A stretch of 42,348 nt of DNA from Asaia bogorensis (GTDB lineage: Bacteria; Pseudomonadota; Alphaproteobacteria; Acetobacterales; Acetobacteraceae), in contig CAMCJI010000005.1 in assembly GCA_945874805.1 (NCBI GenBank), positions 1-42,348 of the forward strand, written 5' to 3'. The position numbers and the translations under genes were made by a program. The notes below the pieces were generated by a model that was not told where the DNA came from, made no database searches, and saw only the letters and a list, made by a program, of their open reading frames with translations. Positions within the stretch are counted from its first letter, which is position 1, and each line of letters begins with the position of its first letter. Positions 33,779 through 40,865 of the stretch are shown one piece after another.

Positions 33779-34891
33779 ATGCCCCCCTACCCGACGCGCC
33801 CGGACAGCTACGACAAGGCCGTGGGCCTCTGCCTGCAAGGCGGGGGCGCGCTGGGGAGCTATCAGGCCGGCGCCTATGAGGCGATGGCCGGGTCGGCCTA
33901 TCTGCCGGATTGGGTGGCCGGCATTTCGATCGGCGCGATCAATGCGGCGCTGATCGCCGGCAATCCGCCGGAGCGGCGCGTCGAGCGGCTGCGGACGTTC
34001 TGGGAGCGGGTAACGGTGCCGACCGGCACGCTGCCGCTGCTGGCGCAGTTCGGCACGCGGCAGAGTGCGGCGATGGCCGCGACCCTGTTCGGCCAGACCG
34101 GCTTCTTCGCGCCGCGCAACCCCTTTGAATGGTTCGCCGCCGCCACGCCCGTCAGCCCCTACAGCCTCGCCCCGCTGCGCGAGACACTGGAGGAGTTGGT
34201 AGATTTCGACCTGATCAACAGCCGCGCGGTACGGCTTTCGGTGGGCGCGGTGCAGATCGCCACCGGCAACCTGATCTATTTCGACAGCCATGAGCGGCGG
34301 ATCGGGCCGGAGCACATCATGGCCAGCGGCGCCCTGCCGCCCGGGTTTCCGCCGGTGGAGGTGGAGGGGATGCTCTACTGGGATGGCGGCCTCGTCTCCA
34401 ACACGCCCTTGGAATACATGATCGACAGCCAGCCCCGCCGCAGCCGCCTGGCCTTCGAGGTCGATCTGTTCAACGCGCGCGGGGCGGTGCCGCAGACGCT
34501 CGACGAGGCGACGGAGCGGCAGCTCGACATTCGCTACGCCAGCCGCACCCGCGCCGGGGCGACCAAGGTGCGCGAGACCTGGGACCTGCGGCATATGGCC
34601 AACAGCATCTACGATATGCTGCCGGACGACTGCCGCACCACGCCGGAGGCCCAACAGTTGTACAGGTTCGGCTGCATCACCGAGATGGATATCGCCCATC
34701 TGATCTACCGGCCGTCCCAGCCGCAGGGCGGGGCGAAGGACTATGAATTCAGCGGCCGCACGATGCGCGAGCGCTGGGAGGCCGGGCGCGCGGATGCGGA
34801 GGCGACCCTGCGCGCCGCGCCCTGGCTCGCGCCGATGCCGCCCGGCCACGGTGCCCGCGCCTTCGACGTGCAACGCCCGGCGGGGGACTGA
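33779..34891 (+). CDS. Patatin-like phospholipase
   Basis: A 370-residue serine lipid acyl hydrolase. GGGALG (21-26) is the oxyanion hole, G-I-S-I-G carries the nucleophile S50, and the catalytic Asp is D202 in YWDGGLVSNTP. The C-terminal half (ITEMDIAHLIYRP, DYEFSGRTMRERW) matches the DUF3734 extension found in bacterial patatins. There is no signal peptide, so it should act on the cytoplasmic membrane. I chose ATG 33779 (GGAGAG upstream), not the GTG at 33767. The next gene starts 3 bp after its stop, so it may head the membrane redox operon that follows. Confidence 0.92.
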   Translation: MPPYPTRPDSYDKAVGLCLQGGGALGSYQAGAYEAMAGSAYLPDWVAGISIGAINAALIAGNPPERRVERLRTFWERVTVPTGTLPLLAQFGTRQSAAMAATLFGQTGFFAPRNPFEWFAAATPVSPYSLAPLRETLEELVDFDLINSRAVRLSVGAVQIATGNLIYFDSHERRIGPEHIMASGALPPGFPPVEVEGMLYWDGGLVSNTPLEYMIDSQPRRSRLAFEVDLFNARGAVPQTLDEATERQLDIRYASRTRAGATKVRETWDLRHMANSIYDMLPDDCRTTPEAQQLYRFGCITEMDIAHLIYRPSQPQGGAKDYEFSGRTMRERWEAGRADAEATLRAAPWLAPMPPGHGARAFDVQRPAGD

Positions 34892-34894
34892 CGG

Positions 34895-35095
34895 ATGACG
34901 ACGGCGCAGATGCTGCTGTTGCTGATGCAGGCCTGGTGCGGGGTTGGGGCGGTGATCGGCGCTGCCTTTCTGCTGCTGGGGCTCGACCGGGTGGACCCCG
35001 CCGCGCGCGGGGCGGTGGGATTCCGGCCCTTGCTGCTGCCGGGGCTGGTGCTGCTGTGGCCGGTGGTGCTGTGGCGCTGGTGGGAGGCGCGCTGA
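34895..35095 (+). CDS. Small membrane protein 1 of the Rieske operon
   Basis: A 66-residue hydrophobic protein with two predicted helices (about 5-28, LLLLMQAWCGVGAVIGAAFL; and about 42-62, FRPLLLPGLVLLWPVVLWRW), joined by a short polar turn DRVDPAARGA. I do not recognise a named family. It lies 3 bp after the patatin gene, and its stop overlaps the next start as TGATG, so it is translated with the 33-residue protein. The conserved-looking LLPGLVLLWPVVLWRW ending suggests a partner subunit of the Rieske/ferric-reductase-like protein. Confidence 0.75.
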   Translation: MTTAQMLLLLMQAWCGVGAVIGAAFLLLGLDRVDPAARGAVGFRPLLLPGLVLLWPVVLWRWWEAR

Positions 35096-35196
35096 TGCGC
35101 CGGGCCCAGCGCGCCGCGCACCGGCGGATCTGGACGGCGATGGCGCTGCTGCTGCCGCCGGCGATCCTTTTTTGCCTGCTTGGAGCGATGCGATGA
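35095..35196 (+). CDS. Small membrane protein 2 of the Rieske operon (33 residues)
   Basis: A 33-residue protein: basic head MRRAQRAAHRRIW, then one transmembrane helix TAMALLLPPAILFCLLGAMR. The start is inside the preceding stop (TGATG), and its own stop overlaps the Rieske gene start (ATGA at 35193-35196). It is probably missed by automatic callers. Double overlap and good hydrophobic design argue for a real gene. The charge pattern predicts the N-terminus inside the cell. Function unknown; probably an assembly or stabilising subunit. Confidence 0.7.
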   Translation: MRRAQRAAHRRIWTAMALLLPPAILFCLLGAMR

Positions 35197-36947
35197 GCGT
35201 GCAGTACCGCCCGGTCGGCTGGACGCCGGCGAAGCTGATCTATGACGTGGTGGCGGTGGCGGCCGTCGCGGCCTATCTGCTCGCCTATCTGCGCCTCGCC
35301 CCCCTGATGCAGCCGGACATCCAGCCGATCGATGAGGGGACGATCCCGATCCGCGCCTACGGCAGCTGCGCGCTGCTGCTGCTGAGCCTGGTGCTGTGCA
35401 TCGGCCCGCTGGCGCGGCTGAGCCCGCCCTTCCTGCCGCTGCTGTACAACCGCCGGCATCTCGGCGTGCTGACCTGCCTGGTGGCGCTGGCGCATGCCTA
35501 TGCGGTGCTGGACTGGTACTTCGCCTTCTCCCCCACCCCGCCGTGGGAGGCGATGTTCGCGACGGATACCGCCCAGGGCTTTGCGCGCGGGCTGCCGTTC
35601 CTGCCGTTCGGGATGGCGGCCCTGCTGGTGCTGCTGCTGCTGCTGGCGGCGACCAGCCATGATTTCTGGCTCGCCTTCCTCGGCCCGGCGCTGTGGAAGG
35701 GGCTGCATATGGCAGTGTACTTCGCCTATGCGGCGGCTGTGCTGCATCTGGCGCTCGGGCCGCTGCTGTCGGCGGCCTCGCCGGTGCTGGCGTGGGTGAT
35801 GCTGGGGGCGGCTGGCGTGGTCACGGCGCTGCATCTGGCGGCGGCCTGGCACGGCCGGCCGGATGTGGCGCCGCGCACCGCGGATGGCTGGGTGGATGCC
35901 GGGCCTGCCGCCGCGATCCCCGAGGGCGGGGCGATCGTGGTGCATCCCGCCGAGGGGGAGGCGGTGGCGATCTTCCGCTACCAGGGCATGCTCTCGGCGG
36001 TGAGCAATCTGTGCGCCCACCAAGGCGGGCCGCTGGGTGAGGGTCGGGTGGTGGATGGCTGCATAACCTGCCCGTGGCACGGCTACCAGTATCAGATCGG
36101 CAATGGCCGGGCGGTGCCGCCCTATACCGAGATGCTGCCGACCTACCGGCTGCGGCTGGCGGGCGAGCGGGTGGCGCTGGACCCACGCGCCTTACCGGCG
36201 GGCACGCCGATACCGCCGCTCGCGGTGGAACAGCCGGGCGAGCCGCCGGCGGAGGGCTTCTTTATCGGCTGGGCCACCACCGTCGCGCCGGATCACCGGC
36301 GGCTGCTGGCGGCGCTGGCGCTGCTGCTGCCGGCGGGGTTCCTCGGCCTTGGGCTGCTGCTTGGCCGCACCGCCGTCGATCCCGAGGGGGGTGCGTTCGA
36401 CTGGGCGGCGGGCGAGCAGATGCTGGAGGGGGTGGCGACCGCCCTGCCCTATCCGCTGCTGCATCTGCCGAGCGGCGAGACGCTGCTGCTGGGTGGCGCG
36501 GGTAAGCGCGGCACGGCGCTCGATCCGGCGCTGGATGGCCGGGCGGTGACCGCGACGGGGGTGTTCATCCGCCGCGGCACGCTGCGGATGTTCCAGACCG
36601 ACGAGGTCGTCGCGCGCGATGGCGCGGCGGTGCCGGCGGCGGTGCAGCCGCTGGGGGCGTTCAGCATCGCCGGCGAGATCTGCGACGGCAAATGCACCTC
36701 CGGCGCGATGCGGCCGGGGCGGGGGCTGGCGCACCGGGCCTGCGCCAATCTGTGCCTGACCGGGGAGCTGCCGCCGGTGTTCGCCACCGCTCTGCCGGTG
36801 CAGGGCAGCCGCTATCTGCTGCTCGCCGGGGCGGATGGCGGGCCGTTGCCGGCCGCCGCCCGGGCCTGGACGGCGATCCCCGTTACCCTGGCGGGCGAGT
36901 TGGAGCGGCGCGGCGATCTGCTGGTGTTCCGGGTGAAGCTGCCATGA
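35193..36947 (+). CDS. Ferric-reductase-like membrane protein fused to a Rieske [2Fe-2S] domain
   Basis: A 584-residue protein. Residues 1-220 hold six helices with a ferric-reductase/MsrQ-like layout; H101, H172 and H185 are candidate heme-b ligands. Residues 240-335 are a Rieske domain with C274-x-H276 and C293-x2-H296 (CAHQGG and CPWHGY). A seventh helix (370-391) is followed by a C-terminal domain (400-584) with a Cys/His set, C497-x3-C501 and H514-x2-C517-x3-C521, that could bind a metal. Electron flow between heme and the Rieske centre is likely; the donor and acceptor are unknown. It is coupled by ATGA to genes on both sides. I know no characterised protein with this exact order. Confidence 0.85.
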   Translation: MSVQYRPVGWTPAKLIYDVVAVAAVAAYLLAYLRLAPLMQPDIQPIDEGTIPIRAYGSCALLLLSLVLCIGPLARLSPPFLPLLYNRRHLGVLTCLVALAHAYAVLDWYFAFSPTPPWEAMFATDTAQGFARGLPFLPFGMAALLVLLLLLAATSHDFWLAFLGPALWKGLHMAVYFAYAAAVLHLALGPLLSAASPVLAWVMLGAAGVVTALHLAAAWHGRPDVAPRTADGWVDAGPAAAIPEGGAIVVHPAEGEAVAIFRYQGMLSAVSNLCAHQGGPLGEGRVVDGCITCPWHGYQYQIGNGRAVPPYTEMLPTYRLRLAGERVALDPRALPAGTPIPPLAVEQPGEPPAEGFFIGWATTVAPDHRRLLAALALLLPAGFLGLGLLLGRTAVDPEGGAFDWAAGEQMLEGVATALPYPLLHLPSGETLLLGGAGKRGTALDPALDGRAVTATGVFIRRGTLRMFQTDEVVARDGAAVPAAVQPLGAFSIAGEICDGKCTSGAMRPGRGLAHRACANLCLTGELPPVFATALPVQGSRYLLLAGADGGPLPAAARAWTAIPVTLAGELERRGDLLVFRVKLP

Positions 36948-37114
36948 TCGAGACCGCGCTTGCCACCTTCATCGCCGTGCTGGCCTGGTTCGCCTGGCAG
37001 GGCGGGGCGATGCTGGCCGAATTCGCCGGGCTGGACGAGCTTTGGCCGCTCATCCAGCCGCTCTGCGTGCTCGCCACGTTCAGCATCATCGACTGGATGA
37101 TGCGGCGGGTGTGA
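36944..37114 (+). CDS. Small membrane protein 3 of the Rieske operon (56 residues)
   Basis: A 56-residue protein with two hydrophobic segments: ETALATFIAVLAWFAWQGGA (about 3-22) and LWPLIQPLCVLATFSIIDWM (about 33-52), separated by MLAEFAGLDE. It starts inside the Rieske gene stop (ATGA) and ends in the basic MMRRV. It is the last gene of the operon; the next gene is convergent 12 bp away. The family is not recognised. Strict overlap with the Rieske gene argues that it works with that protein in the membrane. Confidence 0.75.
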   Translation: MIETALATFIAVLAWFAWQGGAMLAEFAGLDELWPLIQPLCVLATFSIIDWMMRRV

Positions 37115-39495: not shown

Positions 39496-39560
39496 GCGCC
39501 GCTTGCCGAAGGCGCGGGAGTCTGCGCCCGCTAGCGCCATACGCCACCAGGAAGGCTCCC

Positions 39561-40094
39561 ATGCGCCATCATATCCTCGCATTTTCCCTGCTGCTGACCG
39601 CCGGCGCCGCGAGCGCCCAGACGCCCTACACGCCCGGCCCCGACAACGTGAAACTGCCGGCGAACTACCAGGCGGGCTTCATCCGCTACGCCACGGTGGA
39701 CAAGCCGGACCGGAAGATCATCCGCTACCTCTACGCCAATCCCGAGGCCTTCGCCGCCGCCAAGCCCGGCCAGGAACTGCCGCACGGCACCGTGCTGATC
39801 ATGGAAGACCATGCCGCCCGGCTCGGTGCGGACGGGGTGCCGCTGCTGGACCAGCAGGGCCGGTTCATCGCCAACCCTGCCGTCATCAGCGTGACGGTGC
39901 AGGAGAAGCAGCCGGGCTGGGGCGTGGGCTATCCGGCAGCGAAGCGCAATGGCGAGTGGGAATACGCGCGGTTCAATGCCGACCTCTCGCGCAATCCGGG
40001 GCCAGTGGAAGCGTGCTTCACCTGCCACATCCAAACGCGCGCGAGCCAGGATTTCGCGTTCAATTTCTGGGACTTCGTCCAGACGCGCAAATAG
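39561..40094 (+). CDS. Cytochrome P460-family periplasmic heme protein
   Basis: A 177-residue exported protein with signal peptide residues 1-19 (ILAFSLLLTAGAASA, then QTPY). A single c-type heme site C152-F-T-C155-H156 is near the C-terminus (EACFTCHIQTRASQDFAFNFWDF). IRYATVDKPDRKIIRYLYANPEAF, PHGTVLIMEDHAA and WEYARFNAD match the cytochrome P460 domain. Known P460 proteins oxidise hydroxylamine or bind NO via a lysine-crosslinked heme; K51-K52-type lysines are visible but cannot be assigned. Its 3' end is overlapped by the convergent sigma-factor frame. Confidence 0.9.
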   Translation: MRHHILAFSLLLTAGAASAQTPYTPGPDNVKLPANYQAGFIRYATVDKPDRKIIRYLYANPEAFAAAKPGQELPHGTVLIMEDHAARLGADGVPLLDQQGRFIANPAVISVTVQEKQPGWGVGYPAAKRNGEWEYARFNADLSRNPGPVEACFTCHIQTRASQDFAFNFWDFVQTRK

Positions 40095-40789
40095 GCCGCA
40101 ACCCGCCGCAGCCCAGGCTTGGCGCCGGCCGCGCGGGCGGGGGCTGCCTGCTTGCGGCGGGCCACGGCTGCCCCGTCCAGCGCGTCGATCGCGTTGCGCA
40201 CGCGGTTGCGGGCGCGGTGCAGCAGGACCCGCTGGTTTTCCGAGGTGATGTCAAGCAGCTCGCACGCATCCTCGGCGGACTGGCCTTCGATATCGCGCAG
40301 GATGATCACCGCGCGCTGGCCGGCCGGCATTTTCTCGATGACCTCCTGCACATGCGCCCATAGCTGACGGCCGGCGACCACCCGCTCGGGGTCCAGTTCC
40401 TCCCAAAGGGCGGGAGCGTCCGTCCAGTGGCCGTCCGGTGCGAAGCGGGAGGGGTCGACGGCGCGTTCCTCGCCCTGTGCGCCTTCGGCAAAGCTGGAGA
40501 AGCTGACGGTGCGCCCCTCCCGCACCGCGCGGGTGCGGGCACGGTTCAGCACGATGGTGAAAACCCAGGAGGAGAGGGCGGAGCGGCCCTCGAACTTTGA
40601 AATATGTGAGAAAACGGCAAGCCAGGCGTCCTGCACCACCTCCTCCGCCTGGGCGCGGCTGCCGATGATGCCGCTAGCGACGCCCACGAGCGAGCCGTGA
40701 AACCGGCGGATCAGGCGGCGGAACGCAGCCTCCTCACCGGCACGCAGCCGGGCGAGGAATTCGGGCGTGTCAAAGAGGCGATCTGGCAT
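39929..40789 (-). CDS. ECF RNA polymerase sigma factor with long C-terminal read-through
   Basis: A sigma-70 region 2 domain (FRRLIRRFHGSLVGVASGIIG, AEEVVQDAWLAVFSHISKFEG) and region 4 (VIEKMPAGQRAVIILRDIEGQSAEDACELL, ENQRVLLHRARNRVRNAI) are clear within the first 210 residues. The frame then continues to 286 residues and runs 166 bp antisense into the cytochrome P460 gene. The extra tail is basic, Trp-rich and not family-like, so a lost stop or an old frameshift near 40100 is possible. A zinc anti-sigma gene lies divergently 76 bp away. The start could be ATG 40789 or 40813; neither has a strong ribosome site. Confidence 0.85.
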   Translation of the reverse strand: MPDRLFDTPEFLARLRAGEEAAFRRLIRRFHGSLVGVASGIIGSRAQAEEVVQDAWLAVFSHISKFEGRSALSSWVFTIVLNRARTRAVREGRTVSFSSFAEGAQGEERAVDPSRFAPDGHWTDAPALWEELDPERVVAGRQLWAHVQEVIEKMPAGQRAVIILRDIEGQSAEDACELLDITSENQRVLLHRARNRVRNAIDALDGAAVARRKQAAPARAAGAKPGLRRVAAYLRVWTKSQKLNAKSWLARVWMWQVKHASTGPGLRERSALNRAYSHSPLRFAAG

Positions 40790-40865
40790 GGCGGGAGTGT
40801 AGCACTCCGCCATGAAACGCGGCAGTCTGAACGGAGTCCAATGATGACATATCGGAGTAACCCGT

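Follow-up and report, generated by a model that had tools for sequence, protein, structure and literature searches.

Four plus-strand genes, each overlapping the next, occupy positions 34895-37114 of the 42,348-nucleotide stretch of Asaia bogorensis DNA that we analysed (hereafter the window), and encode products of 66, 33, 584 and 56 amino acids. The coordinates and the gene overlaps (TGATG, ATGA and ATGA) given in the initial annotation are all correct, and every residue that it singled out, namely H101, H172 and H185, C274, H276, C293 and H296, and C497, C501, H514, C517 and C521, is found in the large protein. The features of the locus are as follows.

33779..34891, plus strand: patatin-like/DUF3734 gene, a neighbour probably outside the core
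34895..35095, plus strand: S66, 66 amino acids, two predicted helices, putative subunit 1
35095..35196, plus strand: S33, 33 amino acids, one helix, putative subunit 2; TGATG overlap with S66
35193..36947, plus strand: large gene, 584 amino acids, FRD-Rieske-TM-(OB-like)2; ATGA overlap with S33
35217..35858, plus strand: FRD/STEAP-like six-helix membrane domain, residues 9-222, with invariant NRRH (86-89), H101, H156, H172, H185 and H214
35883..36209, plus strand: Rieske [2Fe-2S] domain, residues 231-339, ligands C274, H276, C293 and H296; predicted cytosolic
36288..36368, plus strand: seventh transmembrane helix, residues 366-392, predicted N-in
36384..36641, plus strand: first OB-like domain, residues 398-483, structural matches at Z about 7
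36642..36944, plus strand: second beta-domain, apparently OB-like, which bears the Cys/His site; predicted periplasmic
36672..36755, plus strand: motif GEICDGKC-x12-H-x2-C-x3-C, residues 494-521
36944..37114, plus strand: S56, 56 amino acids, two helices, putative last subunit; ATGA overlap with the large gene

When genome contigs were scanned, 262 relatives came to light, 80 of which were retained. They reveal a conserved operon of five genes, mostly alphaproteobacterial, which encode in order a 2TM protein, a 1TM protein, an FRD-Rieske protein, a TM protein with two OB-like domains and the Cys/His residues, and another 2TM protein. Most relatives have the large protein split into adjacent N (FRD plus Rieske, about 350 amino acids) and C (TM plus Cys/His, about 250 amino acids) proteins, the large gene of the window being a fusion of genes three and four. 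A homologue of S66 with conserved residues G18, F25, R44, W55 and P56 lies upstream in 83 of 86 loci, and the remaining three loci are at contig ends. Homologues of S33 are mostly 46-58 amino acids long and carry the motif RRxHRxxHxxIW, and a small two-helix or membrane ORF takes the S56 position after the C gene in 67 loci, including the window. These small genes have been annotated independently by NCBI in Rhizobium plasmids, and purifying selection on them is indicated by pN/pS, which is 0.12-0.37 for S66 and S33 (as for N and C) and usually 0.40-0.56 for S56, one close pair giving 0.87. A profile search, as had been proposed at the outset, uncovered a divergent branch in which the order is likewise S66-S33-N-C. 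Judged from sequence comparison, the gene set is conserved far beyond chance, given the 262 relatives, the ubiquity of S66, the purifying selection and the order kept in divergent lineages.

Gene fusions add to this picture. No fewer than three changes on the tree are needed to account for the N+C fusion, which occurs in at least two separate lineages; one change falls in a Roseobacter MAG that stands away from the Acetobacteraceae group. S66 and S33 are fused in locus L182 and, judging by length, in several others. Both kinds of fusion in other lineages support the existence of one complex. The suggestion that the 66-, 33- and 56-residue partners are subunits gains support, and the small proteins presumably serve as subunits of this complex. 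Searches of plasmids located the operon in Rhizobium only, and named isolates that carry it belong to Rhizobium, Roseibium, Pseudovibrio and Falsiroseomonas. One locus (L091) is labelled Myxococcota, yet groups within the alphaproteobacteria in the N-domain tree, and its label is probably a binning error to judge from that placement.

Two domains of the large protein have recognisable families. Its Rieske domain (PF00355) is matched by Pfam with an E value of 4.5e-14 (52.6 bits against a gathering cut-off of 20.3), the C-x-H ... C-x2-H ligands being C274, H276, C293 and H296, and its Ferric_reduct domain (PF01794) with an E value of 1.9e-9 (38.1 bits against a cut-off of 28). Neither the C-terminal domain nor any of the three small proteins scores above a Pfam or NCBIfam family cut-off. 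Residues H101, H172 and H185 are invariant in 82 of 82 sequences, as are H89, H156 and H214, which are additional to the three histidines named earlier, and R87. By spacing, H101, H172 and H185 correspond to haem ligands His-115, 209 and 222 of NOX2, and R87 occupies the position of NOX2 His-101; an Arg at this fourth His position is a signature of YedZ and STEAP proteins (NOX2 positions and signature: PMC3591440). The FRD domain thus retains three of the four canonical haem histidines, with R87 at the fourth, which suggests that it possibly holds a single haem only. The same RR...H / H...H frame is seen in a second FRD protein of the window genome, which is MsrQ-like. By these sequence features, the FRD/Rieske/Cys-His protein is a member of the FRD superfamily, of a Rieske-bearing variant and with a predicted haem b.

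The AlphaFold2 model of the large protein (pLDDT 87.9, pTM 0.86) is consistent with this assignment, as it shows the six-helix fold with haem histidines on TM3 and TM5 that is expected of the superfamily. Residues 12-222 match STEAP4 (Z 16.3 over 198 residues, rmsd 3.8), and STEAP1 and STEAP2 match also. The match to NOX5 (Z 14.4) extends over residues about 9-356, the Rieske domain occupying the place of the flavin domain, and DUOX likewise matches the membrane part. Residues 231-339 match Rieske ferredoxins at Z about 15. Under the positive-inside rule, K/R counts average 9.2 over the N-terminus, loop 2-3 and the stretch that follows TM6, versus 2.8 over the three outer loops, although the signal is uneven in that loop 4-5 has few positive charges (0.35); the segment after TM7 is acidic. 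These counts, together with homology in the case of the Cys/His domain, lead to a prediction in which the N-terminus and the Rieske domain are on the cytosolic side and the Cys/His domain is periplasmic. A periplasmic location is also consistent with the secreted relatives of the Cys/His domain, which have signal-peptide-like starts and adjoin SCO1/SenC genes. The initial annotation had envisaged electrons moving across or along the membrane, and the STEAP/NOX fold (Z 16), the cytosolic Rieske domain and the periplasmic C-terminal domain, as predicted, make the across-membrane version likely.

Profile searches of Pfam and the PDB returned nothing significant for the C-terminal domain, with weak matches to DUF5818 and DUF5666 only. 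When modelled alone, the C-terminal protein (pLDDT 90.3) comprises two beta-domains in addition to a helix, and the first beta-domain matches OB-fold proteins at Z about 7; the match list is filled by this first domain and barely covers the second, which we infer to be OB-like as well. The C-x3-C...H-x2-C-x3-C set described initially is present, but its first Cys is not universal, for C497 is replaced by V or I in the divergent branch and is therefore clade-specific. By contrast, the operons of that branch retain C501, H514, C517 and C521, and so do secreted relatives. Because of the V/I replacement, the core of the putative extra metal site is probably C501-H514-C517-C521. In this respect, loci from profile searches provide a fairer test of invariance than the 80 retained loci, whose apparent invariance is inflated by their selection with exact peptide patterns, including GEICDGKC. 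In three loci (L127:7904-9919, L131:6570-8351 and L133:6789-8448), a small secreted protein related to the Cys/His domain (GEIIDTWC...HHxCAxWC) has as neighbours another secreted Cys protein and a protein of the SCO1/SenC type. The cluster is conserved, and both the GEIIDTWC-type relative and the neighbouring secreted Cys protein are without a Pfam family.

Several known systems share parts of this architecture. YedZ/MsrQ (PF01794) has the six-helix FRD domain and the Arg at the fourth His site, whereas the window protein adds the Rieske domain, the periplasmic Cys/His domain and invariant H89, H156 and H214, and has no MsrP neighbour among the window genes scanned. STEAP metalloreductases provide the best-matching solved membrane fold, but the N-terminal NADPH-oxidoreductase domain of STEAP2-4 is missing here (the first helix begins at about residue 12) and a Rieske domain replaces the flavin supply. 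NOX and DUOX proteins share the membrane fold and a cytosolic electron-donor domain after TM6, except that the donor in the window protein is a Rieske domain rather than an FAD/NADPH domain and that three, not four, canonical histidines are present. The Rieske ferredoxins of aromatic dioxygenases (BphA3, CarAc) have the same domain fold and ligand set, but they are soluble single-domain carriers. A bacterial FRD joined to a Rieske domain, as in the window protein, has been catalogued as architecture M4 (Zhang et al. 2013, PMC3591440); in the parts of that survey considered here, M4 is treated as an architecture only, the drawing of which also includes an FMN domain, with no mention of an operon, small subunits or a Cys/His domain. 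The initial proposal that haem, Fe-S cluster and metal site in one chain form a new route must be tempered accordingly, since the combination is not wholly new. Among open-access papers, we found none on the operon, its small subunits, the Cys/His domain or their function.

Two Rieske-fused enzymes recur beside the operon, one a glutamate-synthase-like FMN protein and the other a pyruvate-oxidase-like TPP enzyme that resembles E. coli PoxB; neither the Rieske-GltS-like nor the Rieske-PoxB-like protein attains a curated NCBIfam cut-off. Rieske fusions to one or other enzyme type are found, for example, at L067:2839-4446, L067:4479-6452 and L106:9079-11055. Linkage was assessed in 290 alphaproteobacterial genomes, 14 of which have a full-length C protein. 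The full Rieske-GltS-like gene is present in six of the 290 genomes, all six with the operon (Fisher p 3.8e-9, a test that counts related genomes as independent). These six represent four genera, and the genus-level count is 4/4 versus 11/213 (about 4e-6 by our own arithmetic). In some of these genomes the gene is on a different contig from the operon, and the GltS part without the Rieske domain occurs in two further genomes, both lacking the operon. The Rieske-PoxB-like gene is present in nine of the 290 genomes, five of them with the operon (Fisher p 1.4e-5, under the same assumption of independence), and is often adjacent to it. A search of the window genome found neither a Rieske-GltS-like nor a Rieske-PoxB-like gene.

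Other neighbours are less constant. The patatin gene (33779-34891) stops 3 nucleotides before S66, with no overlap, and just 4 of the 80 relatives have a patatin gene immediately upstream, a clade-restricted arrangement; the lipid link once suggested for it is weak, and we rejected it as a core feature on this count. Elsewhere the same upstream slot holds an SDR gene or a Rieske-glutamate-synthase-like or Rieske-pyruvate-oxidase-like gene. A role in PHB metabolism through the recurrent SDR was also rejected, as six of six SDRs tested fall below the NCBIfam cut-off for 3-hydroxybutyrate dehydrogenase. An OpgC-like acyltransferase is encoded near the operon and the secreted-paralogue cluster (L175:9847-11085, L177:5125-6336, L111:2967-4124, and near L127 and L132), in L177 directly upstream of S66, and a CxxxCxxC (radical-SAM-like) protein is encoded directly upstream of the divergent operon at L176:4975-6066 and L178:4946-6022. 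The window also contains a plus-strand gene for a cytochrome P460 family protein with a CFTCH haem motif (39555-40091), whose ORF overlaps that of an ECF sigma factor on the opposite strand (39932-40813).

On balance, we favour the view that the products of the operon form a membrane complex by which electrons are carried one at a time across the cytoplasmic membrane, from a cytosolic Rieske centre by way of haem b to a metal or thiol domain in the periplasm. In its favour are the conserved genes and their order, the fusions, the invariant ligands, the predicted fold and topology, and the genomic association with Rieske-tagged cytosolic enzymes, whereas the lack of both enzymes in the window genome, the missing fourth haem His and the uneven charge signal count against it. 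In such a complex, cytosolic donors would reduce the Rieske [2Fe-2S] centre, and electrons would then pass via one b-type haem (H101/H185) to the periplasmic face, a second cofactor close to H89/H156/H172/H214 on the cytosolic side perhaps taking part. There the Cys/His site in the second OB-like domain would pass them on, the recipient being either a metal ion or a periplasmic protein in its oxidised form, and the three small proteins may form the scaffold.

Two rival explanations concern the acceptor. In one, the complex would be a STEAP-like periplasmic metal reductase, with its metal site at the Cys/His residues, and would reduce Cu(II) or Fe(III) either for uptake or to serve the assembly of cuproproteins. 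STEAP4 and STEAP2 are the closest solved membrane folds, and the secreted Cys/His-domain relatives adjoin SCO1/SenC, a copper-handling family; however, that linkage belongs to the paralogue and not to the operon, and no metal transporter or regulator was recognised among the recurrent neighbours, so that we treat this explanation as doubtful, if deserving of attention. Alternatively, electrons might pass via the Cys-rich domain to an oxidised periplasmic protein (a disulphide or methionine sulphoxide) in a repair or redox system resembling MsrPQ. The FRD domain is indeed of the YedZ/MsrQ type, with three His and an Arg, and the CxxxC pairs could act as redox-active thiols, but the protein scores 34.1 bits against the cut-off of 130 for the MsrQ equivalog (NF003831), the window genes scanned around the operon include no molybdopterin MsrP, and the genome encodes a separate MsrQ-like FRD protein. 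A repair function of this kind seems to us unlikely.

Two further explanations depart from outward delivery to a metal or protein. The joint presence of a Rieske domain and a membrane protein with predicted haem b could signify a quinone-linked respiratory module, a remote analogue of cytochrome bc that is used by the Rieske-tagged pyruvate oxidase or glutamate synthase. PoxB of E. coli, which the linked TPP enzyme resembles, feeds quinone. Yet the Rieske domain resembles dioxygenase ferredoxins and is predicted to be on the cytosolic side, the membrane fold is that of STEAP and NOX, and Pfam found no counterpart of the cytochrome b subunit of cytochrome bc1/b6f among the operon proteins, all of which makes this module quite improbable. 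An NOX-like oxidase that makes superoxide or reduces O2 at an outer haem would accord with the matches of the membrane part to NOX5 and DUOX, but we give it very little credence, as Pfam finds no NADPH/FAD domain, the fourth haem His is absent, and the conserved periplasmic Cys/His domain would be left without a role.

Returning to transmembrane transfer from a cytosolic Rieske centre, we tentatively entertain a more specific form of it, in which the operon specifies a new multi-subunit complex whose docking Rieske domain replaces the flavin donor of NOX and STEAP, into which Rieske-tagged PoxB-like and GltS-like enzymes plug, and whose periplasmic metal centre of three Cys and one His is of a new kind. 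If true, a flavin-free, Rieske-driven branch would be added to the NOX/STEAP/MsrQ superfamily, and cytosolic catabolism would have a means of reducing a periplasmic target. The two Rieske-fused enzymes, as yet uncharacterised, and the Cys/His domain, which belongs to no Pfam family, would likewise gain a biological context.
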